Assembly (NCBI RefSeq): GCF_022965805.1
Contig: NC_133109.1
Span: forward strand, 3,325,869 to 3,389,868
Direction: 5' to 3'
Origin: Primulina eburnea
Taxonomy: Eukaryota; Streptophyta; Magnoliopsida; Lamiales; Gesneriaceae
DNA: 64,000 nt
The translations under genes and the position numbers were made by a program. Shown here in pieces: positions 1-61,104 of this stretch. Each line of letters starts with the position of its first letter. The first letter of the stretch is position 1. The notes beneath the pieces were generated by a model. That model was not told the DNA's origin. It did not search any database and worked only from the letters and a program-made list of their open reading frames with translations.

Positions 1-180
1 TCAGTTAGTTTTCCGCAACTGTTTTATTCAGTTTAACTGATTGTTATCGACCGACGAGATACTTGAGTCAGTTTGTAACAAAACTGTACCCAACCTTTCG
101 AAGAAGTTTTAATCTAGCAAGTGTTTATTCAACCCCCCCCCCTTCTAAACACTTTCACGTTGAGTTAACCGATCCTATCA
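1..180 (+). repeat. 3' end of the 5' LTR of copia A
   Basis: Identical to 9874-10051 except that the poly-C tract near position 133 has ten C instead of eight. It ends CCTATCA directly before the primer-binding site. Confidence 0.95.
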
Positions 181-182
181 AG

Positions 183-193
183 TGGTATCAGAG
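183..193 (+). other. Primer-binding site of copia A
   Basis: TGGTATCAGAG is complementary to the 3' end of initiator tRNA-Met. It lies two bases after the LTR end, as usual for SIRE-type copia elements. Confidence 0.9.
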
Positions 194-238
194 AGAAGTT
201 TATCTTGTCGTAGAACATATTCTCTCAACTGATTCAGT

Positions 239-2209
239 ATGTCTTCTTTCAACAAAATTCCTATGTTTTCCAGGGAAGACTTTGATGACTGGAAAATCAG
301 AATGCAGGCTCATTTAGCTGCACAAGATGATGATATGTGGTACGTCATAACTGACGGGCCAATGAAAATTTTGAAAGCAAACACAGCAGTTGCCATCACC
401 GAAGGGGCACCTCATAGAATTGAAAAACCCAGAGATGAGTGGACTGCTGAAGATAAAAGAAAAGCAAACCTTGACAATGTAGCCAAGGACATACTGTATA
501 AAACACTGGACAAGATAACGTTCAGTAAAATCAAGATGTGCAAGACAGGAAAAGAGATATGGGAAAAGCTGATTCAGTTATGCGAGGGAAATGAGCAAAC
601 AAAGGAAAACAAACTTTCTGTTGCTGTACAGAAGTTTGACAACATCAAAATGAAAGCTGGAGAATCAATGCTTGAATATGATGAAAGAACCAGTGGAATC
701 ATAAATGAACTAAATGCACTTGGAAAAGTGTATACAAATAAAGAAGTGGCTCTCAAGATTATCAGAGGACTTCCCAGAGAATGGGATGTCAAGACAATGG
801 CTATGAGGGAATCAAAAGACTTGAACAAAGTTGAAATTCATGATTTGTTTGCTGATCTGAAAGCTTATGAGTTTGAGTTACAAACTCGAGGAGAAGCAGA
901 ACCATCAACACCTTCATCAACTACTGCTCTAACTGCTATAAGAACAGAACCAACTGGTTCAGTTGAAAAAGCTGCAGATCAATTGAGCAATGATGCTATG
1001 TCATTGTTTATCAGAAAGTTTGGTAGATTCATGAGGAAGAATCAGGGAAATTTTCAGAAGAGCTACCAAAGAAATAACTCCAGAGAAGATTCAAACGCTT
1101 GCTATAACTGTGGAAAGCCAGGACATTTCATTGCTGACTGCCCAAAACCAAAGAAGGACAGTCAAGTCTCAACTGAACGGAAAAAGAAATCATATGAGCA
1201 CAAAAGGAGACCTAAGGATGAAAGGAAAACCTATAAAAAGAAGCATGAAGTGCTAGTAGCTGAAGAAAGTAAAGCCAAATGGGCAGAGACTGACAGTGAT
1301 GAGTCAGAAGCTGAAACTTCATACAGTTCTAGTGAAGAAGAGGAAGAAGTCAAGTGTCTGATGGCTGATGAGACAGAAGATAAATCAGACAATCAGCAGG
1401 TATTCGACTTTAGCTCAACTGATTTCACTAGAGAAGAGCTTATTTCGACTCTTCATGACATGGTCAGCGAGTATCAAAAGCTTGCTCTATCATTTGATAA
1501 AGCCAGAGCAAAGCAAGATGATCCCTTGGACAACAATACTAAAACTGATCAGTCAGTTGATATGTTGAGTCTAAAAAGGGAAATTGCTGAGCTCAATGCT
1601 GAAAAGAGCAGGAATCAATTGTTGATTCAAAAATTGATGCTTGAAAATGCAAAGCACAACGAGCTCATTCAGGCTTGGAATAAATCTTCAGCAGCTCTAA
1701 CTGATATTCAGAATTCGCAAAAATCAGTTGCTGACAAGACTGGACTAGGGTTCAGTAGTCAAAGTGAGATGTCTTCCAATGATACTCAGCCACAACTGAA
1801 TATGGACAAAGGAAAATTCATTCGCTTTGTCAAATCAGTCGTGGAACAAGAACAGCTTGAACCAAGTAAACTGATTGAACCGCCCTTTGAGAACAAGAAC
1901 AAGGCAAATAGATATGGTATTGGATATAGTCCAAAAATTTCAACTGACTCTCGTGGTCAAACATCGAAAAGAATTTCAAAACGATTTTCAAATGAATACT
2001 CCAACTACTATAACTGTAAGCCTGTTCAGAAACGATATCGGCCGAACAATCAGTTGGGAAAGGCAAAATCACATATTGATTCACCTATGCATCACACACA
2101 AAGCACACACAAAACGAGAAAGACCATATGGAATACAGCAACTGGACGGTCAGTCAGACTGATCCAAGTTTGGATTCCTAAAGGACTAATCAACTTTGGA
2201 CCCAAATAA
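239..2209 (+). CDS. Gag of copia A
   Basis: A 656-residue structural Gag that should form the cytoplasmic virus-like particle and bind genomic RNA. The ATG lies about 45 bp after the PBS. The first 220 residues match the copia Gag (UBN2/DUF4219-type) fold region (FDDWKIRMQAHLAAQDDDMW near residue 15). A CCHC zinc knuckle, CYNCGKPGHFIADC, lies near residue 290, followed by a basic stretch and an acidic serine-rich stretch. A probable coiled coil covers residues about 395-500. The frame is open throughout. It ends GPK-TAA, in the same frame as pol downstream. The same GPK-stop occurs in element B. Confidence 0.93.
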   Translation: MSSFNKIPMFSREDFDDWKIRMQAHLAAQDDDMWYVITDGPMKILKANTAVAITEGAPHRIEKPRDEWTAEDKRKANLDNVAKDILYKTLDKITFSKIKMCKTGKEIWEKLIQLCEGNEQTKENKLSVAVQKFDNIKMKAGESMLEYDERTSGIINELNALGKVYTNKEVALKIIRGLPREWDVKTMAMRESKDLNKVEIHDLFADLKAYEFELQTRGEAEPSTPSSTTALTAIRTEPTGSVEKAADQLSNDAMSLFIRKFGRFMRKNQGNFQKSYQRNNSREDSNACYNCGKPGHFIADCPKPKKDSQVSTERKKKSYEHKRRPKDERKTYKKKHEVLVAEESKAKWAETDSDESEAETSYSSSEEEEEVKCLMADETEDKSDNQQVFDFSSTDFTREELISTLHDMVSEYQKLALSFDKARAKQDDPLDNNTKTDQSVDMLSLKREIAELNAEKSRNQLLIQKLMLENAKHNELIQAWNKSSAALTDIQNSQKSVADKTGLGFSSQSEMSSNDTQPQLNMDKGKFIRFVKSVVEQEQLEPSKLIEPPFENKNKANRYGIGYSPKISTDSRGQTSKRISKRFSNEYSNYYNCKPVQKRYRPNNQLGKAKSHIDSPMHHTQSTHKTRKTIWNTATGRSVRLIQVWIPKGLINFGPK

Positions 2210-2245
2210 ACAAAGGGTACCACAATCTTATTTTGTATGTGAATG
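2207..2245 (+). promoter_or_regulatory. Gag/pol junction with conserved stop and candidate 3' splice site
   Basis: Gag and pol are in the same frame but separated by TAA at 2207-2209 and TGA at 2240-2242. The junction ends TGAATGCAG, followed by GTAACAGGT. Element B has GPK-TAG at the matching place, then TTTGCAG and GAACAGGT. A conserved stop followed by a conserved AG boundary suggests that pol is reached by readthrough, reinitiation at ATG 2243, or splicing that removes the stop. Which one operates is inference. Confidence 0.45.
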
Positions 2246-5158
2246 CAGGTAACAGGTACAACTGAAGATTCAGTTTGGTATCTGGACAGTGGATGCTCAA
2301 GACACATGACAGGTGATTCAAAACTGCTATCCAAACTGATCAAATACGATGGTCCAAAGATTAGTTTTGGAGACAACTCGAAAGGTACAACTGTGGGTAA
2401 GGGTAAGCTTATCCATGGTAATTTTATCATTAATGATGTTTTATTAGTTGAAAATCTCAAGTATAATCTGATAAGCATCAGTCAGTTATGCGATAATGGA
2501 TTTTCAGTTCAATTTGACAAACTTATTTGCTCAGTCAAAAACTCAACTGATGAGGTCATTCTAACTGGCAAAAGATGTGGAAACACATACAAAGTCAGCT
2601 GGAATGATCAACCTTATGCATCAGTATGTCTTATTGCCTCAAAATCTTCGAAAAACTGGTTATGGCATAAGAGGTTAAACCACTTGAATTTCAAATCTAT
2701 TGCATATTTGAGTAAACATGATCTTGTGACTGGGCTGCCCAAAATGGATTTTACAAAAGACAAAATTTGCTCAGCATGTCAGTTTGGCAAACAAATAAAA
2801 TCTTCTTTTAAGAACAAGGGTCGTAAATCTTCTTCCCGATGCTTAGAACTATTACATATGGATCTCTTTGGTCCAATACCGGTGATGAGCTTAGGGGGAA
2901 TGAAATACACCTTGGTGGTTGTAGATGATTTTTCTAGATTCACTTGGGTCATTTTTCTCAAGACCAAAGACCAAACTGCTGCTCAACTGATCAAGCTTTT
3001 CAAAAGATTATCAAATGAAAAATCAGTTGGAATTGACAGAATCAGATCCGATCGAGGAACTGAATTTATCAATAAAATTCTTTCAAACTATTTAGAGAAT
3101 ACTGGAATCAAACATGAGCTCTCAGCAGCAAGAACTCCTCAGCAAAATGGTGTAGCTGAAAGGAGAAATCGAACACTTAAGGAAGCTGCTAAAACAATGC
3201 TTGCTGATTCTAGTATCTCTCAAAGGTTTTGGGCAGAAGCAGTGAACACTGCGTGTTACACTCAAAACAGATCAATGATTAATAAGAATCATTTGAAAAC
3301 ACCGTATGAGATCTGGCATGGAAGAAAAAGTGTGGTTTCTTACTTTAAAATATTCGGCTGCAGATGTTTTATACTCGACAATGGTAAAACTCATTTAAAA
3401 GCTTTTGATGCTAAATCTGCAGAAGGAATATTTCTTGGTTATTCATCAGTAAGTAAAGCTTACAGAGTCTTCAACAAAAACACTTTAAATGTTGAAGAAT
3501 CTATTCATGTTGTTTTTGATGAAACTGTACTAACTGATAAGCCAACTGATACAGTTGAGCTAGCTGACAGATTTACAGATATCAGTTTGGAGGATGATGA
3601 TGAAGAAGATACTCATATTAATCAAAGCAATCTCCAAACACCTGAACCTGAGATATTAGATCAGGCTGTTGAATTGGAAGCTAATCAGTTAGTAGAACAA
3701 ACAAATGAGATTCAGTTGCCAACTGAAACAGCTCCAACTGAAACTGAAACCAATCAGTTACCTACTGAAGCAGTTACCAATTTGGAATCAACAAATGTTG
3801 AACTCAGATGGAAGAAATCACATCCTCCAGAATTGGTGATAGGTAATCCATCTGATCCGGTAAGAACGAGAAATCAAACGCTTAACTTATTCATTCATTC
3901 AGCTTTTGTATCTCAACTGGAACCAAAGAAAACTGATGAAGCTCTTGCTGATCCTAACTGGATAAATGCCATGCAAGAAGAGCTAAATCAGTTTATCCAT
4001 AATAATGTCTGGAACTTAGTTCCAAGACCAATTTCCAAAACTGTTATAGGTACAAAATGGGTATACAGGAACAAACTGAACGAGGATGGTTCAGTTGTGC
4101 GCAACAAAGCAAGGCTAGTTGCACAAGGATACAGGCAGGAAGAAGGAATTGATTATGATGAGACATATGCACCAGTTGCAAGACTGGAAGCAATAAGAAT
4201 ATTCCTGGCCTATGCATCATTCAAAAATTTCAAAGTGTACCAGATGGATGTTAAAAGCGCATTTCTGAATGGACAGTTGCAGGAAGAAGTCTTTGTTGAA
4301 CAACCTCCAGGTTTTGTTAATCATCACCTTCCTGATCATATCTATCATTTGAACAAAGCCTTATATGGTCTTAAACAAGCTCCAAGAGCTTGGTACGAAA
4401 CTCTTTCAAAATTTCTAACTGATCATGATTTTTCTGTTGGATCAGTTGATAAGACGTTGTTCAAATTTTCTAAGAATGATCATATCTTACTTGTTCAAAT
4501 TTATGTTGATGATATCATATTTGGGTCAACTAACCCCAAATTATGTGAGAAATTTGCTAAGTTGATGCAGGAAAAATTCGAAATGAGCATGATGGGTGAA
4601 CTGACATTCTTTCTTGGATTACAAGTGAAAAAATTGGATTCAGGCACACAAAATGTTGGGTTATGGTATTCTAAAGACTCATCTTTCAATTTAGTTGGTT
4701 ATTCAGATGCAGACTATGCAGGATGTAAACTTGATCGAAAAAGTACAAGTGGATCATGTCAGTTTCTAGGAGACCGACTGATTTCTTGGTTCAGCAAAAA
4801 GCAAACATCCATAGCAACTTCCACAACTGAAGCAGAATATCTTGCTGCTGGAAGCTGTTGTGCCCAACTGCTCTGGATTCAGCAACAACTGAGAGATTAT
4901 GGAGTTGATACTAAAGAATCACCTATATTTTGTGACAACACAAGCACAATTGCTATAACCTACAATCCAGTTCTTCACTCTCGAACCAAACACATAGATG
5001 TCAGACATCACTTCATCAGAGATCATGCTCTAAAGAAGGAAATCAGACTGGAATACGTCTCAACTGAACAACAAGCAGCTGATATCTTCACCAAGCCACT
5101 GGCTGAGACTAAGTTTTCTCACTTCCGCAATATACTTGGATTAATTGATTTATCTTAA
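2243..5158 (+). CDS. Pol of copia A (protease, integrase, RT, RNase H; internal deletion)
   Basis: A 971-residue copia Pol. The aspartic protease motif is [13 protein letters not shown] near residue 14. The GAG-pre-integrase/zinc region is [10 protein letters not shown]...CSACQFGK near 135-185. The integrase core has HMDLFGP and [13 protein letters not shown]. The RT begins near NNVWNLVPR and has YVDDIIFGS near residue 755. RNase H has [17 protein letters not shown], with the tail DIFTKPLAE. The RT-RNase H connection is missing: after [11 protein letters not shown] the frame jumps to TQNVGLWY, whereas element B has about 96 more residues there, including the SRPDIMFAV segment. The deletion is in frame, so the ORF is open but the reverse transcriptase is probably inactive. 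The element may have been mobilised in trans. Confidence 0.93.
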
Positions 5159-5373
5159 TTAATGATCATTGTTCGTAATTTGTTGATTAAGCTTTATTGT
5201 TGTTTTACTGAATATTTAAGTGAGTTGCTTATTCTTATGAACTATTAACTGATGTCAGCAAGTGTTTGTATTGTTCTTATGGTTATGTTTCTAACAAATC
5301 ATTGCAGGCAGAGATAAAAGAACAATGACGATAAAACATAATAAATATTTTCATTAATCAGGAGAGGAGCCGG

Positions 5374-5751
5374 TTACATTGTCACAATATTTTCCTCCAC
5401 AGAATCTATCCACAAACTCATCCATGCAGCCAGTGCTGAGGAAGAAGTTTTGCAGAAATCATGGGAGACAGCGATGCGGCAGAGGATCTCCAGCTCCTTC
5501 AGAAGAAAGAGCTTGTAGAGATAACCTTCTTTAAAAAGGTCCACCCCCGCAGGAACCTCTAGGAGCTCCCGCACCTCTTGTAGTTGGGCCTTCCGCCTGA
5601 AAGTGGAGACCCGTCCAGAGTAATACAGGAACTCCAGCTCCTGCATCTCTTCCCAGTAACGAAGGCTAGTGTAGAAGACTTCATCTTCTATGAACTGCTT
5701 CCTAGCTTGTAGAGTAAACTGAGCGTCACTTGAGCTTCCAGCTTCTGCCAT
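5374..5751 (-). CDS. Antisense ORF of copia A, unknown small protein
   Basis: A 125-residue ORF on the strand opposite to gag-pol, in the space between pol and ORF3. It resembles no family I recognise. It looks mainly helical, with a central leucine-rich stretch (YLYKLFLLKELEILCRIA) and two Trp residues in its C-terminal part. It aligns with the antisense ORF of element B: shared features are ARKQxIEDxV at the N-terminus, DxFxxxGxYLxxLLxE in the middle, and IAxxxxFxxTS followed by LxxWxxxW at the end. Retention of an open antisense frame in two diverged elements at the same place argues for selection. A TATA box lies 59 bp upstream of the ATG. Function unknown. Confidence 0.7.
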   Translation of the reverse strand: MAEAGSSSDAQFTLQARKQFIEDEVFYTSLRYWEEMQELEFLYYSGRVSTFRRKAQLQEVRELLEVPAGVDLFKEGYLYKLFLLKELEILCRIAVSHDFCKTSSSALAAWMSLWIDSVEENIVTM

Positions 5752-5809
5752 TATCTTTATCTGTGTAGAATTACTTGCTGAGATGAATTTTGGCTAACCC
5801 CTTCACTCT

Positions 5810-5817
5810 TATTTATA
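5810..5817 (-). promoter_or_regulatory. TATA box of the antisense ORF in copia A
   Basis: On the minus strand the sequence reads CCCTATAAATAAG, ending 59 bp before the antisense ATG. Spacing and sequence fit a plant core promoter. Both antisense ORFs in element B have TATAAATA at similar distances. Confidence 0.6.
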
Positions 5818-6364
5818 GGGCAAAACAAAGGAGGGATACGAAAGGACATCTCTCTGTGACGTTTGCTATACCCAGCACCATACTCATCATTAATATTCTC
5901 TGTCTATTGCCGTCATTTTGCTTTAATAGATTAAGGGGGAATAATGGTTCAAGAGGTTAACTGAGAAGACAGTCGTTAGTAAATTCTCGATTGAAAGAAC
6001 TCAGTCTTATCAACTGACCTATCAGTCGACTTTTTCACTAATCTTCTCATATAAGTTAACTAATTAACCCAATTTTATTCCAAATCAAATGACGTGACCG
6101 TCTGCTAAACTAATCATGACTCTTGATTTTCTTTACGTGGAGTTATCTTCACCACTCAATTCGTACACACGATTGTAGCACACGTACTACTTTGTTTCTT
6201 TCAAAATTCTTTGGACTGACACGTGTCCAGAGTTTGAATGGTCACGTACATATGTACTATTACCCGCCTCTTTTCAGTCTTACTTTTCGACTACGTCAAA
6301 TTCTCCTTAGGGCAAGAACTACCTCATTCCTCGAATTTTCTTTCAGGCAATTTATCAGTTATCA

Positions 6365-8998
6365 ATGGCAACCCAAATTCCCGCTTTCATGCTAAATTCT
6401 ATGACCATCAACTTTGGATCTATATTATCCTTCGGCGATGCTGAAGTTCAGAAAGTATTTCAGAAGCTTGAAGTTGCTGGTCTAAGAACATTTTTGGGAC
6501 AATCTTCTCAGGATATCTATCCCAAAGAACTTCAGGATTTCTACTCTTCTGGCGTGATTGATTCTGAGGGAAATATCAAGTCTACTATCAATGATCAGTT
6601 GCTGATCATTTCTGAAGATTCTCTTGGTGATTTCTTTCATTTACCTTCTGAAGGTATGGCACAACTCTCAGATGTCAAGGCGTCTGATATTGAAGAGATG
6701 CAAGTCTCTCTTTCTATTGATGGACGAAAGATTAAGGTTTCAGATCCTAAGAAAGAACTGAAACATGAAGTTCAATTGCTAGCTGATGTTATTGCAAAAG
6801 GAATTTTGGCAAAAGCAGGATCATTCGCTGCTCTAACTTTAGAGAAATTTCAGGCCATTACCGTTATTATGGCTGGTCAAAAATTTAACTGGAAGCGTTT
6901 CATTTTTAATGTTCTGAAGAATATGTTTCTGTCTTCTAAACAATCCAAGGGCTTTGCAGTTCAAATCAGTTATTTACTGAAAGCTAAAGGCTTAGTGGCT
7001 GAGGACTCTGAGAGAACATCGAAATTTAAGGTGTTCAATGCAAAGAACACAATGCCAATCAAATCCAAAATGGACTTGACCACTACTTAGTTTGTGAAAA
7101 TCAAACAGGAAATTGGGACTCAGTTAGCCGCTCCCAAATCAGTCAAGAAAACCAAAACGTTGGCTCAACTGCAGATTGCCAAAAGAAAGTTGGTTTTGAG
7201 TTCATCAGAATCAGAAAAGACTCCATCTCCTCACATTGTGAAGAAGCCAAGAACTCAAAGGGTTAAAACAACTTCTGAGGTAACCAGTCCGACTGACAAA
7301 ATGATTTCCTTCACTGATCAGCAACCTATAGAAGCAGTTCCTCTGCAGATTATTCCACAAGATGATTCAGCAAGTACCATAAAAAAATCGGTTAGGACGC
7401 AAGCTCCTGTTACTCAAATATCTCGACCAATTGGTGTGGCACCTGCAAGACCTAAAGGGATAAAGTTTATAGAACCGGTGGAATCAACTCGAACAGGACT
7501 GGAAATCCCTCATATCTTGAGTGGTGATAAAGGAAAAGAGAAATTGATTGTGGAACCCAGACCCTCAAACCCAATTCAGACTCATATTGATCTCGTATGG
7601 GCAAAAGTGAACAGTTTTGCTGCTGCAAAGACTAAGTCCTATGACGCTTGGGTAGCCTATCGTACTGAAGTTTTTGCCAAGCAACTGAAGGAGAAGTCCG
7701 AACTGAGAAAATTCATCAAGTTGGAGGCCCTCGTTCTCCGCACGGTCAAAGCTGCAACTATTGCTCAAGCCTTGGAGAGAAAAAGCTATTTCTTTGATCA
7801 GCTGAGAGCAAAGAAGTTGGCTCAAATTGTTGCTAAACTTAAGAACAACTACTTGCCAACTGCCCCTACTGCATATGTTGATCAAGCTGTAATCACTCAG
7901 CTTGACACTGATCTGATGGGGATACTATCTCGAATCAAATTTTGGGAATCGGATCAAGAACTCGTGGTCTACCAAGGAGATTCAGATGATGACAATGAGG
8001 AACAAGTTGAAACAGCATTCTCTGACAAAACAGCACCATCATCCGCCTTAGTTCTGGTTCCAACTGGAGAACCAGTTTCTGATAAGCTTCCTTCACCACC
8101 TGTTGAACAACTAATATATACTGAAGCGGAGCTATCTCTTGCTCATATTGATGAAGTGATTCAAGCAGTGGTAGAGGAGTCCCACTTTAGTGCACCAGTT
8201 AATGATCCAGTTGATCGCTCTGCTGATCAAACCAATCTACAGGTCACTATTTCTTCAGTCGAAATTGTTCCACCAGACCAATCTGCTGATCAGGGCTTAC
8301 AAATTGATATGCCAGTTGAATCAATTGATCATTCACTACAGGCATCAATTCAGGTTGTGTCACCATCAACTGTACAACATCCTCCCTCACCATCTTTAGA
8401 TCAAGAAGAAAAGACTGCTGATGAGACTCCGGTTCAAGGGACAATAACTGGAACTGATACTTCAGTTCAGCCAATTGCTGATACCAAGATAACTGACCAA
8501 GCCTTGGTCATTACTCAGCAAACAACAAGTGAACCAAGCACTTCTCATCAATCCAACCCTCCATCTTCAGCAGATTTTGATCTCATTTTTGAGGAAGTCC
8601 AACATATGCAGGACAGCATGAATCAAATAATTTCGGCCATTTCCAAAATTCAAAATACGCAACTTTCGCACAGTGTGAAGTTAGACGATACTCAGGAATC
8701 CATCAAAAGACTGAAGGCCATCGAATCTGCTGTTACCGCTCTTTCTTTTGCAGTCAGTGACATTCAGAAAAATAGAGGTATCATATCCGGTCTGACTGCC
8801 ACTCAAGAACTCATTAATCAACGCGTCAACAATGTGGAATCGCTTATGTCTCGGAAATTTGATCTACTGCAAGTCACACTGTCTACTGCTATTGAAAATA
8901 TGTCATGCTCTGTCACGGTTCTTTCTTCTCACGTTCGCAAGCTATCTGACAAGATGGAGCAGTTTGACAAAAAGGGGGAAGAGCAGAAGAATTCTTAG
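6365..8998 (+). CDS. ORF3 of copia A (env-position ORF) with one in-frame stop
   Basis: A third sense ORF of about 878 codons at the position of the env-like gene in SIRE elements. A single TAG at 7088-7090 splits it; the frame continues without shift. The N-terminal 240 residues form a globular region (LEVAGLRTFLGQ, LADVIAKGILAKAGS, GFAVQIS) that aligns with the ORF3 N-terminus of element B. Then come a basic segment with serines (KKPRTQRVK), a long low-complexity Pro/Ser/Asp region, and a C-terminal coiled coil of roughly 130 residues ending in KKGEEQKNS. I see no signal peptide or clear membrane span, so a classic envelope role is not supported. The N-terminal region faintly recalls the plant 'putative transposon protein' domain; this is a weak impression. 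Confidence 0.75.
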
Positions 8999-9107
8999 TA
9001 GTACAGCAGTATTGATTGTATCAGATTTCTATTATTTCAGTTGTTGATCTTATTTTATCTACTATGCAGAATTCAGTTATTTATTCCAAGTTTTGTCAAA
9101 ACACCAT

Positions 9108-9119
9108 AAAGGGGGAAAT
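9108..9119 (+). other. Polypurine tract of copia A
   Basis: AAAGGGGGAAAT directly precedes the TG start of the 3' LTR and should prime plus-strand DNA synthesis. Confidence 0.85.
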
Positions 9120-10051
9120 TGTTGGAAACTTAATTCCGGCGTTTGACAAAAGACTCAACTGAATTCAGCAACTAAAAGCTACCAACTGATCGACTTAACT
9201 GAACCTAGTTTAACTGATATTTCAGCAGATATTCTCGCCAGTTCATTCTCGCCAACTGATTTGTTATCAGCTGATCTTTCAGCTGTACACGTCATAAAGT
9301 GAAAACGACAACCAACAAATAGTACAGTCTTCTGCGAACTGGTAGTGGATCGCCGTATTTCAGAAGTTGCAGTGTACGATCTATCAGGGAATATTGACGT
9401 GGCAAACAACGGCTGTTATTCAAATAAATGTTACCGTTGACAGAAGCCTATAAATAGTCGAAGAGAGCAGCTGAAGAACTACCGATTCTGAATTACTCAT
9501 TTTACTTGCTGTTACTCTGCGAAAATATTCTCTCAACTTCGTCAAATCAAAGCTCAAGCTTATCAGTTTTATCAGTAGCATTCAGGCTACGTTTTGAGCT
9601 AGAAAAAGCACTTTGTAATCTTTGATAAATTGTACAAGTTGTGCTAAGATCAGTTGTGATCTGTAAAAGAGTTGTTAACTAAGAGTTTCAGTTTTGGCAA
9701 TAGATAAGTCCAAACTGAAGTGGGTCAGTACACGTTATTGTATTTAATCAAAGTCTTTTAGTGAATATCCTATCTTTGTGATAGAAGGGGTGACGTAGGA
9801 GTTATTCAAGTCTCCGAACATCCAGAAACATTTCCTGTGTTATTTACTTTCAGTTATTCATTCTATCTTTCAGTCAGTTAGTTTTCCGCAACTGTTTTAT
9901 TCAGTTTAACTGATTGTTATCGACCGACGAGATACTTGAGTCAGTTTGTAACAAAACTGTACCCAACCTTTCGAAGAAGTTTTAATCTAGCAAGTGTTTA
10001 TTCAACCCCCCCCTTCTAAACACTTTCACGTTGAGTTAACCGATCCTATCA
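9120..10051 (+). repeat. 3' LTR of copia A
   Basis: A 932 bp LTR starting TGTTGGAAAC and ending CCTATCA. It is dense in AACTGA/TCAGTT motifs (about 14 copies). Confidence 0.95.
9449..9456 (+). promoter_or_regulatory. LTR promoter TATA box of copia A
   Basis: CCTATAAATAGTC in the first half of the LTR fits a TATA box. Transcription would start near 9480, giving a U3 of about 360 bp. Confidence 0.65.
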
Positions 10052-10299
10052 CTAATGGTTCATTTCGAGTCGATAGGCACTAAGTTGAATCAAGAGTCGT
10101 AGGAAGAAACATTGTGTCGAATTTTGAGTTGTGTCGTTGTTGTTGATGGTTTGTTACTCTTGGGGTAATGATAATGTTTACTTGGGTTTGGTATAATGCC
10201 TTAGTGTTCTAAGAACGACTCATGGTGTCGTTTCATAGTCCGTGTAATCGAGTCTAGGATGTCAGCAAAGCATGTACAGAATTTTCGTAAGTTCGCGAT

Positions 10300-10550
10300 C
10301 ACAGTGGGTACACGGACCCGCACCCGGCCCTGACACGGGGTCCGTGCCTTTGTTTTCTTCTCGGCGTCTTTTTCCAGTATCTACACGGATGAGAGCACGG
10401 GGTCCGTGCCTTTGGTTTTCACTTAGTGTATTCTTCCAGTGCCTACACGGATGTCCACCCGGACCCTGACACCGGGTCCGTGCCTTTGCTTCCTTTCGAT
10501 GTCTATTTCCAGAGTCTACACAGACCCCTACACGGATGTAGGTACGGGGT
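10300..10550 (+). repeat. GC-rich hairpin cluster in the F 5' LTR
   Basis: Several diverged copies of an inverted unit with the core ACACGGACCC...GGGTCCGTGCC, spaced 50-70 bp. Each can fold into a short hairpin. The matching cluster in the 3' LTR is at 17975-18235; the 5' copy lacks a short piece near 10385. Confidence 0.75.
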
Positions 10551-10901
10551 TTGTGTCCTTCATATTTTTGGGAAAATATTATAACACGTTTGAGGTTTGA
10601 TGGCATGGTTTGGTACAAGGATTTACAATGTCGTGTCATGGGAAATTTTAGAATGTCCTAAGTAATGATTGAACTTGAAAGTAAGTACGATTTCTACGTT
10701 AAGTTATGCAAGTTAAGTATGCAAATTCATGTTAGTATGTGCATTAACGGCCTCGATCGAAGTTCAACGAATCCCTCAACGCCAAGTAAGTATGTATGAC
10801 GTGCAAAGAAAATATTTTAAGTTTTTGAGGTATGCTAAATGTCTTGTGACCAAATTATGAATGGGTTTGGAAGTCGGTGAACGTGGCCGAGGACCTCTCC
10901 G

Positions 10902-10990
10902 TCCCGTTAAATTATGAACGGGTTAGATCGTGGTTGGAAAGCGTTAAATTATGAACGGGGACCAACCAGCCCGTTATATTATGAACGGGG
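10902..10990 (+). repeat. ATTATGAACGGG repeats in the F 5' LTR
   Basis: Three to four near-tandem copies of GTTAAATTATGAACGGG separated by about 20-30 bp. The same block occurs at 18580-18670 and, diverged, at 37393-37505 in the D LTR. Confidence 0.8.
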
Positions 10991-11297
10991 ATCTCATGTA
11001 TGCGGCAGTGGATACGTCCCTGTCAGCCTAGTACTTTGGTGTGTCTGATCAGGCGTTTATTATGCTATGGGTCACTTGCTTGGAAACATCCTCTACGCAA
11101 AAATGATGAAGTCATGTATGTTTTAGTATGCTCAAGTATGCAGTTATGATTATGAAAGTTTCACGCTATGGCACGTCTATATATGTATGCAAGTTCAAGA
11201 TTATTATGCAAGCTCAAGTTTCAAGTTATGTACGTTCTATTTTTAAGGTGCATGCGATTTTATTATGTAGTATTCGTTATCCCAGTGTATACGTGTT

Positions 11298-11311
11298 GAG
11301 TCTTTAGACTC
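11298..11311 (+). repeat. Conserved LTR palindrome GAGTCTTTAGACTC
   Basis: Perfect 6 bp arms with a 2-base loop, about 320 bp before the LTR end. Also present at 18976-18989, 37810-37823 and 47237-47250 in other gypsy LTRs. Confidence 0.8.
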
Positions 11312-11632
11312 ACTAGACTTGATCGATGCAGGTAACTATGTTGATGAGGAGACGGGAGGTGGCGACCAAGGGGCAGGCTTGGACTGAGCGGGAGGTTAGA
11401 CCCGAGGACCGCCTACGTTATTTTAAGATTTTAAGAAAATACAGTTTTACTCTTATTTTATCACTTGTGAGACATTTAGAGACAGCTTTTCTTTTAGCAA
11501 ATTTTAGTTGGCGATATTGATTTCAAATATTGTTTTGATGAATGATGAGTGACGACCGTATGGATGGGTATATTAAGAAAATTTTTAATTTTTCCGCAAA
11601 TTTTAAGTATGAAAAGTACGGTTCGTTACAGT

Positions 11633-11644
11633 TGGTATCAGAGC
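11633..11644 (+). other. Primer-binding site of gypsy F
   Basis: TGGTATCAGAGC, complementary to initiator tRNA-Met, starts two bases after the 5' LTR end. Confidence 0.9.
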
Positions 11645-11863
11645 GGTGTTCTTGTAAAGGGTCACGCCTACTGCCAGTCGCAAGAAGCTCACGAAGTCAC
11701 ACCTCAAGTCTCTAAGGTTAAAGTTTTACATTATGTTATGTAGTAAGCTTCAAGTTATGGTTTCAGTCTGTGCATGTTTTAAGTTTGATTTACGTGCATC
11801 ATAAAATATTGATATAGGTTCATGCATATTGGGTTTACGTGTTGGGTGAATTATTGGAACAGT

Positions 11864-12947
11864 ATGCCTCCTAGACGTGTGATCGACCGGGAAGACAGGG
11901 AGGAGGACAGAGAGCCTCGAGTTGAGGAGAGGGCCAATCCTCCACCGCCACCACCACCAGATATGCAGGCTCAGATGCTTGCTGGTATGACACAGTTCTT
12001 CGCATAGTTTGCGGGGAACCAGGCAGCAGCAATGGGTGCAGGGGCGAGTCCCCAACAAGAGGCAGTATATGAAAGGTTTAGGAGGATGAGTCCTAAGGAG
12101 TTTTCGGGTACCACTGACCCGATGGTAGCAGAGGGATGGATTAAGTCCATAGAGGTAATCTTTGACTTTATGGAACTAACCGACACAGATAGGGTCAGAT
12201 GTGCCACGTTCCTTCTGACAGGGGACGCCAGATTATGGTGGGAGAGTGCATCAGTGGCAGTCAATTTGCAGGTGCTGCCTTGGAATGGTTTTAAGGAGGC
12301 CTTCTACTCCAAGTACTTCACTGAGGAAGTACGAACCAGACTCACCAACGAGTTTATGACGCTGCGGCAGGGGGACAGTAGCGTGGCAGAATTTGTTAGG
12401 AAGTTTGAGAGGGGATGTCACTTTGTGCCCCTCATTTCTAATGATGTCCAGGAAAATTTGAGGCACTTCTTAAATGGTTTGCGGCCGATCCTGCACCGTG
12501 ATGTGAGGGTAGCTGGCCCTACTTCTTATGCAGTTGTCGTTTCTAGAGCTCTGGCGGCAGAGCAAGACCAGCGAGATATTGAGGCGGACAGGCAGGGCAA
12601 GAGGCCCTATCAGGCACCATCGCAACACCAGCAGCAACAACAGCAGAGACCCCAGTTTAAGAGGCCGTTTCAGGGGCCGCCTGGGAAAAAGCCATATCCA
12701 GGACCGCCAAAGGGCAAGGGTCCAATTCAGCAGCAAGGGGCGCCTCAGAAGCCCGCTATCTTCCCAGTGTGCCAGAAGTGCAATCGCCAGCATCCCGGAC
12801 ATTGCCTATGGGGATCCGGGAAATGTTTTAAATGTGGAGCTACAGATCACGTGCTGAAAGAGTGCCCACAGTGGAAGCAGCCAACCCAGGGAAGGGTATT
12901 CGCCATGCATGCTCAGGAGGTGGACCCAGACACCACTTTACTGACTG
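11864..12947 (+). CDS. Gag of gypsy F (exon 1 of gag-pol) with one nonsense codon
   Basis: The start ATG (MPPRR) is chosen because the basic and proline-rich start is typical of Tekay Gag. A proline run follows, then the retrotransposon Gag capsid region (EGWIKSIEVIFDFMEL, ARLWWES, FYSKYF near residues 95-165). A glutamine-rich linker leads to a CCHC knuckle CFKCGATDHVLKEC near residue 325, preceded by a CxxC...HxxxC-type pair. A TAG at 12005-12007 interrupts the frame at codon 48; the same TAG is present in element D at 38411. Without splicing, the frame runs through the intron and stops at 13013-13015, giving a Gag-only product. With splicing it joins the protease frame exactly. Confidence 0.88.
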
Positions 12948-13122
12948 GTAAACTTTTCTACCTAAGCTCAGTATTATTCTGCCTTGCATGTGGAATTTTT
13001 ACTTGGGATTATTAGCGTGCTAGTAATATTTTGTTTGCCTAGGGTTATTGAGTTCTATTGTGCTTAAGGTTTATGTTAGAAATTTTGGGAAAAATAAGTG
13101 GTGTTGTACTAACGCATATCAG
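12948..13122 (+). other. Candidate spliceosomal intron between gag and protease of gypsy F
   Basis: The 175 bp segment starts GTAAAC after exon end ACTG, ends CATATCAG, and carries a perfect TACTAAC branch site at 13108-13114, eight bases before the terminal AG. Joining 12947 to 13123 restores one frame from TLLTG to [11 protein letters not shown] and the [11 protein letters not shown] protease motif. Unspliced RNA encodes Gag only. Confidence 0.75.
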
Positions 13123-16100
13123 GAAACATTTTTATTAAGAGATTATCCACAACTACACTGATAGACTCAGGAGGCACTCACTCCTTCATATCAGAGACGT
13201 TTGCTAATCATTTGGACCTCAAGTCCATTGGCCTAGACGTGAACTTTTCGGTGACAGTCCCGTCAGGGGAAGAACTGTTGGCTACCAGTGTGATCAGAGA
13301 CATTGATCTAGAACTACATGGCCACCTGGTATATGCAGATTTAATCCTATTGCCGATGCCAGAATTCGACATTATCTTGGGCATGGACTGGCTGACAAAG
13401 AACAGAGTCTTAATTGAATTTCAGAAGAGGTCAGTTTTGGTTAGATCGCCGGGCATGGAACAGTTTCTTTTCGAACCAGCTAGATGGAGAAGCTTCCTTC
13501 GCATGATTTCGTGCATGAAGGCGAGGAGGTTGATCTCCAAGGGGTGTCAGGCCTTCTTGGCTAGTATTATTTCAGTGCGTGATGTGCCCACTCCATCTTT
13601 ATTAGAGGTGCCGGTAGTCAGAGACTTCCCAGACGTCTTTCCTGATGACGTCACAGGCCTTCCACCAGAGAGAGAGGTGGAGTTTGCAATCGATCTCGTG
13701 CCAGGCACAGCGCCAATCTCTAAGGCACCATACAGATTAGCTCCAGCTGAGATGTTAGAGCTCAAGCAGCAGATTCAGGAGCTCCTCGACAAAGGATTTA
13801 TCCGCCCTAGCTTCTCACCGTGGGGCGCACCAGTGCTTTTTGTAAAAAAGAAGGATGGGAGCATGAGACTGTGCATCGATTACCGAGAGCTGAACAAGGT
13901 AACGATCAAGAATAAGTACCCACTTCCTAGAATCGAAGACTTGTTTGATCAATTACAGGGAGCTACAGTTTTCTCTAAGATAGATCTTCGATAAAGGTAT
14001 CACCAGCTGAAGGTTAAGGATGCAGATGTTCACAAGACGGCCTTCAGGACCAGGTATGGGCATTTCGAGTTCTTAGTAATGCCATTTGGTTTGACGAATG
14101 CTCCAGCAATTTTCATGGACCTCATGAATCGAGTATTTCAGCCCTACCTTGACCAGTTAGTCATAGTGTTTATTGACGACATTCTCATATACTCGAAGAG
14201 CCATGAGGAGCATAACCAGCATTTGAGGACAGTTTTGCAGACCTTGCAGAGTCGCAAGCTATTTGCGAAGTTCAGTAAGTGTGAATTTTGGCTGCAGAAA
14301 GTTGCATTTTTGGGGCATATAGTATCTAGCAGTGGTATTGAGGTGGACCCAGCGGAGGTATCAGCCGTTAAGGAATGGGTTGAGCCAAAGAACGCATCAG
14401 AAATCCGCAGCTTTTTTGGTTTAGCCGGTTACTACCGTAAGTTCATTAAGAGATTTTCGTCCATAGCAGTGCCGCTCACTTCACTAACCAAGAAAAATGC
14501 TAAGTTTGTGTGGAGTGGGGAATGCCAGAAGAGCTTCGACACCTTGAAGCAAGCTCTTATTTCAGCGCCAGTGCTAGCCATGCCATCAGGGCAAGGAGAT
14601 TTCGTATTATATATCGATGCATCTAAGCTCGTGCTAGGCGCAGTATTGATGCAGCAGGGTCGGGTCATAGCTTATGCCTCCAGGCAGTTGAAAGTGCACG
14701 AGAAGAACTACCCGACGCACGATCTTGAGTTAGCCGCCGTGGTCTTCGCATTGAAAATTTGGAGACACTATCTATACGGCGAGAAATGTCAGATTTTCAC
14801 CGACCACAAGAGTCTCAAATATTTCTTCACGCAGAAAGAGTTGAATATGAGACAGAGACGGTGGTTAGAACTTGTGAAAGACTATGATTGCGAGATTAGC
14901 TACCACCCGGGAAAAGCTAATGTTGTCGCAGACGCCTTAAGCAGAAAAGTGGCAGTTGTCGCTCAGTTGTCAGCTCAGAGACCGCTACAGTCGGAGATTC
15001 AGAAGTTTGGTCTAGAGATTTATCGTGATGGCAAGGCTCCTAGGCTGTCTAATCTGACAGTCAAGTCTGATTTGCTAGATCGCATCCGGGCAGGTCAGTT
15101 TTCAGATGAGCAGTTACAGAAATGGAGACTGAAAGACGAAGCCAAGGGTAGTGTTTTGTACACAGTTTCAGACGGCATTGTGAGATACAGAGGTAGATTG
15201 TGGGTGCCTAGTGTTGGTTCGATCAGACAGGATATTTTGACAGAGGCACACGCATCTCCGTATTCCATTCACCCAGGAGGTATAAAGATGTACAAAGACC
15301 TACAGTTATTGTATTGGTGGCCAGGGATGAAGCGAGACATCCGTAGATTTGTATCAGAATGTCTCACTTGTCAGCAAGTAAAAGCTGAACATCAGAGGCC
15401 AGCAGGGTTGTTTAAGTCACTCCCCATTCCCGAGTGGAAGTGGGACAACATTACTATGGATTTCGTGGTTGGGTTGCCGAGATCAGTCAGAGGGTCGAAT
15501 TCCATTTGGGTTATAGTGGACCAACTCACTAAATCAGCGCATTTTCTACCAGTGAAGACGACTTTCTCCATGACGCAGTATGCGGAGCTTTATCTCAGGG
15601 AGATAGTTCGTTTGCATGGATTCCCAGTTTCAATTGTGTCCGACAGGGACCCAAGGTTTACGTCGTCCTTCTGGAAGAGCTTACATGCGGCCATGGGGAC
15701 GAAGTTGCTTTTCAATATAGCTTTTCACCCGCAGACAGATGGCCAGTCTGAGCGAGTGATTCAGATTTTAGAGGATTTGCTGAGAGCGTGCATGATTGAT
15801 TTTCAAGAAACTTGGGAGTCTAGACTACCTCTAGTGGAGTTCACATACAACAACAGCTTCCAAGCTTCTATTGGTATGGCTCCCTATGAGGCGTTGTACG
15901 GGAGGAAGTTCAGATCACCAGTTCATTGGGATGAAGTTGGTGAGAGGACAGAACTTGGTCCAGAGATAGTTCAACAGACTGCAGACGTGGTGGTCAAAAT
16001 TCGTGACCGGATGAAGACTGCCCAAAGTCGTCAGAAGAGCTACGCTGATAAAAGGAGAAGAGATCTCGAGTTTGCCGTAGGAGGTCACGTCTTTATCAAG

Positions 16101-16502
16101 ATAGCACCTACGAAGGGTGTTATGAGATTTGGAAAGAGGGGCAAACTGAGTCCGAGATTCATTGGACCGTTCGAGATTTTGGACAGAGTTGAGACACTAG
16201 CCTATCGTGTTGCCCTTCCGCCGAATCTGGCCGGGGTGCACAATGTGTTCCATGTCTCGATGCTGAGGAAATATCTGGCGAATCCTTCGCATATTCTGAG
16301 TTATGAGCCGTTGCAGCTGGCTCCAGACCTGTCTTATGAGGAGAAACCAATCCAAATCCTAGACAGACAAGAGCGTAGGCTTCGGAACAAAGTGACTAAG
16401 CTAGTCAAAGTTCGGTGGCTAAACCAATTAGTGGAAGAGGCCACATGGGAGTCAGAGACAGATATGAGACTTCGCTACCCGGAGTTGTTCGGTAAGACTT
16501 AA
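13123..16502 (+). CDS. Pol of gypsy F (protease, RT, RNase H, integrase, chromodomain-like tail)
   Basis: About 1,126 codons in one frame with a single TAA at 13992-13994 inside the RT (KIDLR-stop-RYHQL). The protease has [11 protein letters not shown]. The RT has PFGLTNAP and [10 protein letters not shown]. RNase H has [24 protein letters not shown] and TDHKSLKY. The integrase zinc domain ends in [14 protein letters not shown], followed by the core with [19 protein letters not shown] and [12 protein letters not shown]. The C-terminus has the GPFEIL segment and a chromodomain-like region ([14 protein letters not shown]...YPELF). It would copy RNA to DNA and integrate it; the chromodomain may bind modified histones. 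Apart from this stop and the gag TAG it looks intact. Confidence 0.92.
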
Positions 16503-16523
16503 TTTCGAGGACGAAATCTTTAT

Positions 16524-16538
16524 AAGTAGGGGAGGAAC
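16524..16538 (+). other. Polypurine tract of gypsy F
   Basis: AAGTAGGGGAGGAAC directly before the TG of the 3' LTR. Element D has a matching tract before 35431. Confidence 0.85.
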
Positions 16539-19314
16539 TGTAGTGCCCAAATTCAGTACACGTATAACCCATGCATTTATTTAATTATTAGATCATTTAA
16601 TTATTTTTAACTGAGTTTTAGCCATGCATAATTTAGGAAAATGCATTATTTTAAATTATTCATGTTCATTGCGTTACACGTTAAAATATCCTTTTCGAGT
16701 TTCATGTTTCAGGCGTTTATTCGAGGCGGGATTGACCCGGTGAAGATCTTTGGCAATTTTAAAAGACGGTATTTTATTTTTAGTGGAGTGGGGCATTTTA
16801 AATAATTTAATCTAGTTTTAGTAATTTAAAAGCCTAATTTGACTATTAGGAGATTTTGGAGACTTTAAAGTTTTAAGGAATTGTCTCATGTGCACTTCAT
16901 TTCAATCACACGATTTTTATTTAAAGTTAGTAGTGAGTTAATCCCTTGATTGGTTGTTAATTAGTAATTAAGTATATTATTGTCCCTAATTAACACCCTA
17001 ATCTCCTACCCACTACACAAAACGCACGCACACACACACTTTACACACACCACTCACGACACTCACACATACACACACACAATTTTATTTCTCTCTTCAC
17101 TTCATTCTTTTAAAAGAAAACCTAGGGTTCTTGAGAAGCATAGCAGCCGCACCCTCCCTTTAAGTTCCAGCAAGGTTTTGTTGCATTTTATTCAAAGAAA
17201 ACGGTGCCACGTTCGTCTCGGATCAACCACGCTTCTATCTCCGCTTCGGTATCGCCGTTTCGGTAACGTTTGATATCAAAAGCCACGTATATTCTGTTCT
17301 TTCTGCATCGATCTTGTCATAGTATGCGTAGTGTATTTTTATGCGTGAAAATCCATGTGTGACGTTCGTCGTTTGAGCGGAAAACGGTTTGAATGCGTTT
17401 GAAATACTTTTTAGATCTGAAATCTCGTAACTCACTGTTCTGTTGAAAACTGCGATTTTTCTGTCGAGATTTTGAGAAAACTTTCAACTAAAAAATTGTA
17501 GAACTTTTCGATGCCTTTGATTTGATATAAAATTCGAGATTTTTGGATGAAAATTGAGTGAGTTATGATGTTTTTCGTGGGACTGCTCAAACTGCGTTTT
17601 CAGAAAAGTTATGATATTGATGTATCCTTGGAGTTTAATTGTTGCAGGCTTCGTTGGGGATCAACGGGTGATCGTTGCTGCGTATAGGTACCTCGGTTAT
17701 GTTATTTGGACGGTCACTAATGGTTCATTTCGAGTCGATAGGCACTAAGTTGAATCAAGAGTCGTAGGAAGAAACATTGTGTCGAATTTTGAGTTGTGTC
17801 GTAGTTGTTGATGGTTTGTTACTCTTGGGGTAATGATAATGTTTACTTGGGTTTGGTATAATGCCTTAGTGTTCTAGGAACGACTCATGGTGTCGTTTCA
17901 TAGTCCTTGTAATCGAGTCTAGGATGTCAGCAAAGCATGTACAGAATTTTCGTAAGTTCGCGATCACAGTGGGTACACGGACCCGCACCCGGACCCTGTC
18001 ACGAGGTCCGTGCCTTTGTTTTCTTCTCGGCGTCTTTTTCCAGTATCTACACGGACCCCTACACGGATGAGAGCACGGGGTCCGTGCCTTTGGGTTTCAC
18101 TTAGTGTATTCTTCCAGTGCCTACACGGATGTCCACCCGGACCCTGACACGGGGTCCGTGCCTTTGCTTCCTTTCGATGTCTATTTCCAGAGTCTACACG
18201 GACCCCTACACGGATGTAGGTACGGGGTCCGTGTCCTTCATATTTTTGGGAAAATATTATAACACGTTTGAGGTTTGATGGCATGGTTTGGTACAAGGAT
18301 TTACAATGTCGTGTCATGGGAAATTTTAGAATGTCCTAAGTAATGATTGAACTTGAAAGTAAGTACGATTTCTACGTTAAGTTATGCAAGTTAAGTATGC
18401 AAATTCATGTTAGTATGTGCAGCAACGGCCTCGATCGAAGTTCAACGAATCCCTCAACGCCAAGTAAGTATGTATGACGTGCAAAGAATATATTTTAAGT
18501 TTTTGAGGTATGCTAAATGTCTTGTGACCAAATTATGAATGGGTTTGGAAGTCGGTGAACGTGGCCGAGGACCTCTCCGTCCCGTTAAATTATGAACGGG
18601 TTAGATCGTGGTTGGAAAGTGTTAAATTATGAACGGGGACCAACCAGCCCGTTAAATTATGAACGGGGATCTCATGTATGCGGCAGTGGATACGTCCCTG
18701 TCAGCCCAATACTGTGGTGTGTCTGATCAGGCGTTTATTATGCTATGGGTCACTTGCTTTTAAACATCCTCTACGCAAAAATGATGAAGTCATGTATGTT
18801 CTAGTATGCTCAAGTATGCAGTTATGATTATGAAAGTTTCACGCTATGGCACGTCTATATATGTATGAAAGTTCAAGATTATTATGCAAGCTCAAGTTTC
18901 AAGTTATGTACGTTCTATTTTTAAGGTGCATGCGATTTTATTATGTAGTATTCGTTATCCCAGTGTATACGTGTTGAGTCTTTAGACTCACTAGACTTGA
19001 TCGATGCAGGTAACTATGTTGATAAGGAGACGGGAGGTGGCGACCAAGGGGCAGGCTTGGACTGAGCGGGAGGCTAGACCCGAGGACCGCCTACGTTATT
19101 TTAAGATTTTAAGAAAATACAGTTATACTCTGATTTTTATGATTGGATTGTGAGACATTTAGAGACAGCTTTTCTTTTAGCAAATTTTAGTTGGCGATAT
19201 TGATTTCAAATATTGTTTTGATGAATGATGAGTGACGACCGTATGGATGGGTATATTTAAGAAATTTTTTAATTTTTCCGCAAATTTTAAGTATGAAAAG
19301 TACGGTTCGTTACA
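16539..19314 (+). repeat. 3' LTR of gypsy F
   Basis: A 2,776 bp LTR from TGTAGTGCCC to GTTCGTTACA. It contains a CA-rich microsatellite near 17025-17085, the hairpin cluster at 17975-18235, the ATTATGAACGGG repeats at 18580-18670, and the GAGTCTTTAGACTC palindrome at 18976. I see no gene in it. Confidence 0.93.
17975..18235 (+). repeat. GC-rich hairpin cluster in the F 3' LTR
   Basis: Repeats of CTACACGGACCCCTACACGGATG and GGGTCCGTGCC halves that pair with each other. Counterpart of 10300-10550. Confidence 0.75.
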
Positions 19315-25554: not shown

Positions 25555-26855
25555 AATAACCGTCGCTAACTAAAATAAGCGACGGTTTACAAAAACTCGT
25601 CGCTTTTTTAGCAACGGTGTACAGATTACCGTCGCTATTTTAGCGACCGTTTTTTAAAAACTGTCGCTACCATTGCGACGATTTAATAAACCGTCGCCAT
25701 TTATTGCGACGACGTTAATTAAAACCGTCGCTATACAAAACAAGCGACGAGTTTTCGATAACTTTCGCTATTGTAGCGACAGTTGAAGATAAACTGTCAC
25801 TAATATTACGACGGTTTATCCACTAATAAAAATAAGCGACGGCGTTCTAAAAACCGTCGCGTTTTTAGCAACGGTTTATATTCAACCGTCGCTACTGTAG
25901 AGACAGTTTTTTGGACCCGTCGCCATGTGCGACGGTATAAAACCACCCATCGCAATATACGGAGACGGTTAAACATAAACCATCGCCGATATAAATCGGT
26001 GACGGTTTTGTATAACCCGTCGCCCATCTAGATCGGCGACGATTTTTGAAAAAGCTGTCGCTATTAGCGACGGTCAAAGATCTAACCATCCCAACTAGCT
26101 ACGGTTTTCTCATAGCCCGTCGCTATGATTCTATATATATTGAGGTTCGCGAACATTTTTCTTAAGCGATTTTCGCCTATCTCTGGTAGTAACGAATCTC
26201 TATAAATTTTTCGGAGTTTCGGTTTTTTTATTTTGTACTAACTATTTCATATTTATTTTGTAGATTTGCTACTCAGTGCGATTTTCCAGCTTTACATGGA
26301 ATTGCATGTCATCGCGCAACATCAGGTTTTAAAGCTTTTTTTTACAGAAAATTTAATACATGATTTTAATTTTAGCGTAGTAGTTTATTTGTGTAAATTT
26401 AATAAATTAATTTTTGCGTAAATTAATCTTCGCGCACATCAGGTGCGACTTTCATTACACACCGTCGCTATATTAAGCGACGGTTTTTTATAAAAACCGC
26501 CGATTAATATGCCGACGGTTTTTGTTATACCGTCGTTTAATATAGCGACGGTGTTTTTAAAACCGTCGCTTATTATAGCGACGGTTTTGTAAAAACTGTC
26601 GCTTAATATAGCGACAGTGTTCATATAACTGTCGCTTACATCGCTTACATTAGCGACGGTTGGCATATAAATCGTCGCTAAAAAGAGACGGTCTTTTTCA
26701 ATACAACCGTCGCTATAAGCGACGGGAGTTGATAAACCGTCGCTTTGGAAAAGCGACGCTAACTTCTGTTACGTACCGCTGAACCGTCGTTAAAACCGTC
26801 GCTTTAACCTTTTAGCGACGGTGTTAGCGTCGCTAATGTTTTTTTTTTTGTAGTG
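25555..26855. mobile_element. CACTA-type DNA transposon, one terminus recognisable
   Basis: Two arrays of ACCGTCGCT/AGCGACGGT units in both orientations (about 25555-26130 and 26455-26835) flank a 320 bp unique centre. The right end reads TTTTTTTTTGTAGTG at 26841-26855, the reverse complement of the CACTACAAAAA terminus of CACTA (En/Spm) elements. The arrays fit the transposase-binding subterminal repeats of this superfamily. The left side has no CACTACAA end and joins the RAD17-like exon directly. No transposase is encoded, so it is non-autonomous or truncated. Confidence 0.8.
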
Positions 26856-29330: not shown

Positions 29331-29901
29331 CATAATTTAGGAGGAACGATGATTTTTAGTTGGTTAACTAATAAGGCAGATGTCAGTTATTCCTGAAATG
29401 AACTGATTTAGTTTCAAATTGATCATTCAATACTGGAACCAACTGATCTTATCAAATAAGTTAGCTGATGTTAATTTAGTTCATTTCTACAATGAGAATC
29501 GTGACTGATTAAACTATTTTATTTCCAAACTGATTAATTTCAACTAAATAATATTATAATTTTAAATGCTTAGATTCAGTTTTTAAACTTTGACCAGCGT
29601 CCCGGTTTTAAACCGAATCCACCCGAAACTTAACAAAAAAATTTCCAACCTAAACCATGACTTCAAGCCACCCAACCAGCACCTAAACCACTTGTTCCAG
29701 ACCCATTAGGACCTACGAAACACTCCTGAAAGTTGCTGGAAATTTCCAGCGCGCACAAGTCGTAACCTTAGTTGCACCAACCCACGTTTATTCGATTCTA
29801 GACCTAACCATTAGGACCAAAGCTTAACCCACTCTCTCTAGTCCACCTCTAGACCCTCCTGGACTGACTAACCCAAACCCTCAGCCCCGTGCAAGCTGTG
29901 G
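29331..29901. other. Intergenic retroelement debris, no gene
   Basis: The first 250 bp continue the 3' region of the copia relic (AACTGAT-rich). From about 29600 the sequence becomes C-rich and resembles in composition 40690-41177, another unassigned stretch. No ORF of note. Confidence 0.5.
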
Positions 29902-49550: not shown

Positions 49551-49923
49551 TAATGATTTAAAATTAAATAACCAATTAAAAGACAAAATTTAATGGAGAA
49601 AAAACAATTAGGTCAATTTTGTGATCAATTTGGTATGGATCTACCTAATAGAGGAAAAATGAAAATTAAAGATAAAGTAGAAAAAGTCTATAAGAAAAGA
49701 CATTTGTCTGATAGGAAAAAAGATAGAAAAAAGAAAAGAAAAGAAATCTGTGATTTACGGAAAACTGATAAAAAAGCTGAAAAATTTAAAAATAAATTAA
49801 TCATTTGTAGAAAATTTAAAAAGCCAGGACATTATGCAAATCAATGTTGGGCTAAAAACAAAATTAATAATTTAGATATAGATGATATTCTAAAAGAAAA
49901 AATAAATAAAATAATTATGGATT
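49551..49923 (+). pseudogene. Endogenous Caulimoviridae-like fragment, capsid C-terminal region
   Basis: An A+T-rich open stretch encoding a very Lys-rich segment followed by a zinc-knuckle-like motif (GHYANQC), the arrangement at the capsid C-terminus of plant pararetroviruses. The second Cys position of the knuckle is Phe, so the metal site is broken. Its left border with gypsy C near 49550 is not exact. Copia B splits the viral sequence at 49923; the rest is at 62203-63223. Confidence 0.65.
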
Positions 49924-51023: not shown

Positions 51024-51189
51024 ATTTCCCACTTTGTGGTGATGCCAAAACCTAGATGTTCTGTGTTAGTAGAGAAAAGAACGGATTAGATAAACAAAAC
51101 AATCGATATCCAGAGAAAATCACGTAAAACACAAATTAGTTAATTTGGACACAAAGAGAACTATTTTTTTCCAGTATCTCTGAAGGTAG

Positions 51190-53948: not shown

Positions 53949-54411
53949 GGAAATAATCTGAGTTCGTAAAGCGTAATGAAGACGAAAAATGATCAGTTAA
54001 CAAATGATATGTACAGCCATTTAGTAAACATAGGGACACGTGTCGATATGTTAGTAGAGATAGAGGCAAATGTGTCGGTTACTCTAATCATTTCAAAATA
54101 TTTTAAAAAATTGGCGGGCTGTCCGAGACGGTTGCTAAATGAAAAACAGAAGCTGACTTGTCGTTTTATGATAATATCTACTGGAAGTGGATAAGGTGCT
54201 GAAACAAATGCATCACTTCAACAACTATTGGTAGATATACTGTTTTATCGAAAAGACAAATCAGTTTCCAATATAAATGCCATAAAGATGTTCCCCCTCA
54301 ATTAATGCAGTAATAATGAATATTAAACACCAGGCGACCCTTGGCAATCTTTTCAATCTAAACCGTTGAATTTGATCAGTCGCAATGATCCTTATCTCCT
54401 TTGAATATCAC

Positions 54412-55298: not shown

Positions 55299-55306
55299 TA
55301 TAAATA
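55299..55306 (+). promoter_or_regulatory. TATA box of the antisense ORF in copia B
   Basis: TCTATAAATATG, 41 bp before ATG 55347; compare 5810-5817 in copia A. Confidence 0.6.
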
Positions 55307-55346
55307 TGAATCAAGTAGGTAAACCAGATAGTCATTCTTAAGAGAA

Positions 55347-55754: not shown

Positions 55755-55876
55755 TAAAACTTCATATTTTGTCTACTGATTGTCTCCTTTGCTCAGCTTT
55801 TATTTTCTGCAAACTAAAACTTGAACAACCACAAAATAAAATTAATCCATACTATGAGATGAAAACAACAAAATAA

Positions 55877-61103: not shown

Positions 61104-61104
61104 T

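Follow-up and report, generated by a model that had tools for sequence, protein, structure and literature searches.

We propose that a Copia long terminal repeat (LTR) retrotransposon of Primulina eburnea, referred to here as element A, carries a system for recognizing its own DNA through a short word scattered over almost its entire length. Element A fills the first 10,051 bases of a 64,000-nucleotide stretch of contig NC_133109.1 (the window), and our analysis covers this one 64-kb window and three elements within it: A, a damaged relative (B), and a sister element (C). Copies of AACTGA or its reverse complement TCAGTT number 78 in A, the highest count among all 2,080 hexamer pairs. We assign a probability of roughly 0.72 to the joint reading that A is a Sirevirus-like Copia element with self-recognition of the VANC type, in which the N-terminal part of its third open reading frame (ORF3) would act as the reader, and that C carries a changed protein together with a changed word. 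The parts of A and the positions of its relatives are listed below in window coordinates.

1 to 10051, plus strand: Copia element A with its 78 scattered words; the window start truncates its 5' LTR.
1 to 180, plus strand: 3' portion of the 5' LTR of A, 4 words; these 180 bases are the same as 9874 to 10051 except for poly-C run length, differing from the 3' LTR by two poly-C bases only.
133 to 142 and 10006 to 10013: poly-C runs of A.
183 to 193, plus strand: TGGTATCAGAG of A, which resembles a primer-binding site.
239 to 2209, plus strand: gag ORF of A (Retrotran_gag_2, zinc knuckle), 13 words.
2243 to 5158, plus strand: pol ORF of A (integrase core, RVT_2), 30 words.
5374 to 5793, minus strand: antisense ORF of A (stop to stop), with a relative in C at 55332 to 55754.
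6365 to 7090, plus strand: ORF3a of A, the proposed VANC-fold reader, with a weak Transposase_32 match; it ends at an in-frame TAG (7088 to 7090) that interrupts ORF3 (6365 to 8998).
7091 to 8998, plus strand: ORF3b of A, the frame of ORF3a continued past the TAG, with basic clusters resembling nuclear localization signals.
8971 and 9108: two copies of AAAGGGGGA in A, resembling a polypurine tract (PPT).
9120 to 10051, plus strand: 3' LTR of A, 14 words in 932 bp.
26856 to 29600, plus strand: B, related to A but damaged (pol plus the sequence following it), 17 AACTGA against 2.9 expected.
49922 to 62202, minus strand: C, a related Copia element with 81 CAGWAG and 32 AANCAGNAG and with AACTGA at background.
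53310 to 53903, minus strand: ORF3a of C, 37.6% identical to ORF3a of A by tblastn.

A preliminary description of this DNA had put the number of words in A at about 75, close to our count of 43 AACTGA on the plus strand and 35 TCAGTT (minus), and the number expected from base composition at 5 to 7. The latter figure was too low: expected counts were 12.1 in plain dinucleotide shuffles (60 shuffles), 19.4 when codons were preserved in ORFs and dinucleotides elsewhere (maximum 30 in 200 shuffles), 19.0 when the antisense ORF was counted as coding too (maximum 28 in 200), and 28.4 when dinucleotides at codon junctions were kept as well (maximum 38 in 60). The conclusion of enrichment stands nonetheless, and codon-preserving shuffles, a check that had been suggested at the outset, did not reproduce similar counts. 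Coding parts hold 52 words against 16.3 expected (maximum 27, 200 shuffles) or 24.1 with the strict treatment of codon junctions (maximum 35, 60 shuffles), and non-coding parts hold 26 against 3.0 (maximum 7, 300 shuffles).

The word is distributed symmetrically between the strands and occupies 19 of 20 500-bp bins, which bears out the earlier claim that it runs on both strands through LTRs, gag, pol, ORF3, and spacers. In ORF3 taken alone, AACTGA is not among the eight most enriched hexamers. Its density is uneven, falling from about 22 per kb in the sequenced LTR piece, 13.7 in 8999 to 9873, and 10.3 in pol to 6.6 in gag, 4.1 in both the linker and ORF3a, and 3.1 in ORF3b. Within gag, AACTGA ranks second behind the overlapping CAACTG (13 copies against 4.9 expected; maximum 12 in 200 shuffles). 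As had been supposed, tandem repetition does not account for the copies: a single array of 2.5 units was found (3736 to 3750), and the sites of A share no common flanks (0.00 to 0.17 bits per flanking column), so most of them seem to have arisen singly.

Other parts of the window served as controls. The 51,204 bases that belong to neither A nor B hold 43 AACTGA. Unrelated elements, in which equal enrichment would have spoken against the earlier proposal, lacked it: a gypsy element (G) has 5 copies against 7.5 expected, and a further copia element (D) has 8 against 5.2, an enrichment of A's kind not being seen there. Neither G nor D has a dispersed hexamer of this sort, their top enriched hexamers being rare or local. 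The short stretch from 62203 to 64000, which includes a third C-type LTR copy (96% identical, 63224 to 64000, running off the window end), holds 5 AACTGA against 1.7 and 4 CAGWAG against 1.4.

Element C shares the layout of A, and its LTRs are 96% identical to each other. At the protein level, A and C share 67% identity across most of pol, 51% across residues 1 to 526 of gag, 38% across ORF3a, and 29% across the antisense ORF. AACTGA is at its expected level in C (11 against 10.8 when computed by pieces, 12 against 12.9 over the whole stretch), and other words are enriched instead: CAGAAG (51 against 15.6) and CAGTAG (30 against 7.5), jointly CAGWAG (81 against 23.2), and AANCAGNAG (32 against 4.6). 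These words exceed every codon-preserving shuffle in coding and non-coding parts alike and occupy 24 of 24 bins, and in A they number 23 against 18.5 (CAGWAG) and 2 against 3.0 (AANCAGNAG). Both elements favour A or T two bases ahead of CAG; in A, CAG is preferentially preceded by T and followed by T, T, A/G, and in C it is preferentially preceded by C and followed by A/T, A, G. A related element without A's word but with another is what joint change of reader and word would predict.

The word is retained in B, whose pol DNA is 77% identical to that of A and 65% to that of C: AACTGA occurs 12 times against 2.4 expected in pol, and 17 times against 2.9 once the downstream stretch is included, part of which still aligns to the linker of A. 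Repeats rich in AGCGACGG/ACCGTCGC lie upstream of B at 25566 to 25912. In a site-by-site comparison based on pol, 9 of 22 alignable A sites were exact in B, compared with 12 of the 77 remaining CAG/CTG hexamers (p 0.017), and 0 of 27 were exact in C, compared with 10 of 93 (p 0.11). Ten of those 27 sites were one change from AACTGA in C, indicating that words can appear and vanish by single mutations. Furthermore, codon differences between A and C were nonsynonymous in 38 of 53 cases inside A's sites and in 255 of 532 elsewhere in pol (p 0.0013). Either selection at the DNA level may have altered the protein, or the sites may lie in weakly constrained parts.

Evidence for a reader comes from a structural model of ORF3a of A, the only ORF3a protein modelled. 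When 350,542 PDB chains were searched with the predicted ORF3 N-terminal model, VANC21 with its target DNA came first, well separated. Conserved lysines of ORF3a lie at K129, K133, K145, K150, K161, K173, K185, and K192. Transposase_32 was found in 11 of the 21 members of the ORF3a family; DUF1985 was not listed at E values up to 10, and no sequence match of ORF3a to VANC or DUF1985 was found, in searches whose filters drop weak matches. The only named relatives found were proteins of Dorcoceras hygrometricum (Gesneriaceae, Lamiales), and these pointed to a related plant as the probable host. DNA relatives were not confirmed in viral_contigs or genome_contigs, and none in plasmids was usable; two soil-actinomycete plasmid records (H1 and H2), each near 5 kb, resemble Copia pol with 91% coverage and 32% identity, perhaps through contamination with plant DNA. 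The model of the antisense ORF of A is a helical bundle with unspecific structural matches only. Of the two partners that the preliminary description had considered by analogy with VANC, ORF3 gains support from its top PDB match and from the different word in C.

We infer the following mechanism. The ORF3 N-terminal part of A, with its predicted VANC21-like fold, would bind a double-stranded DNA word with the core CAGTT (WTCAGTTR), read as AACTGA on the opposite strand. The word would have been built up by dispersed point mutation across LTRs, genes, and spacers, and its many copies could concentrate a reader of modest per-site specificity on its own element while sparing the host. Judging from VANC21, the element would then lose both its DNA methylation and its silencing. 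In C, both the protein and the word would have diverged, with CAGWAG as the core. This copy of A is probably not autonomous, given the TAG within ORF3 and a pol that lacks about 96 amino acids near 4645 that are present in C (B likewise has extra sequence there); as the copy is damaged, the reader protein would come from other copies.

A mutational or compositional effect with no function, such as context-dependent mutation, codon or peptide bias, or gene conversion between repeats, seems to us very improbable. CAG/CTG is a CHG methylation context contained in both words, and past methylation could therefore bear on them; moreover, 6 of the 13 sites lost in B read AATTGA or AACTAA, as deamination would yield. 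However, deamination would destroy CTG rather than make it, shuffles keeping codons and dinucleotides do not reproduce the effect, the flanks of the sites are unrelated, and two related elements of one genome carry different words. There is equally little to recommend the idea that the word serves transcription factors of the host, for instance MYB proteins, and accumulated as an enhancer array. MYB sites are of the YAACTG type, and C or T precedes AACTGA at 51 of 77 sites in A, but two thirds of the sites (52 of 78) lie in coding sequence, and C, in the same genome, has a different word that is not of this type.

Alternatively, the reader may be the antisense ORF or gag instead of ORF3a, which we regard as quite unlikely. 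The antisense ORF is conserved in position too and evolves fast, and gag has a zinc knuckle; against this, the antisense model yields only the unspecific matches noted above, and the word is strand-symmetric, whereas gag zinc knuckles typically bind single-stranded RNA. An element-encoded reader might also serve another role, such as regulation of its own transcription, cDNA or nuclear trafficking, or steering of insertion, the VANC-like fold speaking for DNA binding only. All of the evidence for a reader fits such a role equally well, and the sites extend into the LTRs. We nevertheless consider it unlikely, as saturation of the whole element would appear to exceed the needs of a promoter and the best structural match has an anti-silencing role as described in PMC5735166 and PMC10398659.

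If A does carry VANC-type self-recognition, the role of extra ORFs between pol and the 3' LTR of plant retrotransposons, described as an open question in PMC7264820, would gain one case for which a fold is predicted, a DNA word is proposed, and a direct test is at hand. We lean, with less assurance, toward a wider proposal: that sequence-specific anti-silencing of this type extends beyond VANDAL to a Copia family with a VANC-fold reader at the position of the Sirevirus envelope-like gene, its own genes rewritten into dispersed binding words, perhaps at the price of altered amino acids, and with reader and word diverging together between families. Other extra ORFs of the Transposase_32 (putative plant transposon protein) type may be readers too. 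Such a finding would extend to LTR retrotransposons what is known from VANDAL DNA transposons, offer two natural reader-word pairs (A and C) for studying shifts in specificity, and, if true, provide an example of a mobile element whose coding sequence was shaped by selection on DNA words.

Three further observations concern neighbouring sequence. A gypsy-type element adjoins the end of A (10049 to 19300), and its long repeats (10049 to 10680 and 17714 to 18358) hold short repeats with ACACGGACC. A dense local cluster of AGCTCG/GCTCGAGC lies at 38909 to 39536, and a 157-amino-acid ORF with AMIDSGADLNVI, aspartic-protease-like by eye, lies outside C at 62824 to 63297.

Its gag-pol domains and LTRs make A a Copia element and rule out a VANDAL/MULE DNA transposon. 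Like the Sireviruses described in PMC2829016, which have several PPTs, a signal rich in C close to where the LTR ends, and multicopy short motifs, A has two PPT-like copies before its 3' LTR and poly-C near the LTR end; the Sirevirus motifs of that account, however, are palindromic, usually built on a CGG-CCG core, and found in LTRs and close to the env-like gene, and the word of A is non-palindromic, has a CAG core, and is spread over the whole element. The antisense TRP28 of Retand (PMC11963269) is likewise an extra ORF between pol and the 3' LTR with predicted DNA binding, but Retand is a Gypsy element and TRP28 is antisense with PF04195, and what that report describes is tandem repeats rather than an element-wide word. 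A further likeness is to VANC21 and VANC6 of Arabidopsis VANDAL (PMC5735166, PMC10398659, PDB 9lnj). As described there, VANC21 binds YAGTATTAY, VANC6 targets carry AGTTGTCC/AGTTGTAC, each protein reduces methylation of its own family (PMC5735166), and the effects extend over coding regions (PMC10398659). Shared with A are an element-encoded, fast-evolving protein of similar predicted fold beside a better conserved core gene, a short AGTA/AGTT word enriched in its own family and, in this one window, not enriched in other nearby elements, and a related family with another word. VANC words lie mostly in non-coding tandem repeats according to PMC5735166, whereas those of A are scattered through coding DNA on both strands; what would be new relative to VANC is the class of element (a class I Copia retrotransposon), the dispersal of the word through genes, and the absence of arrays.
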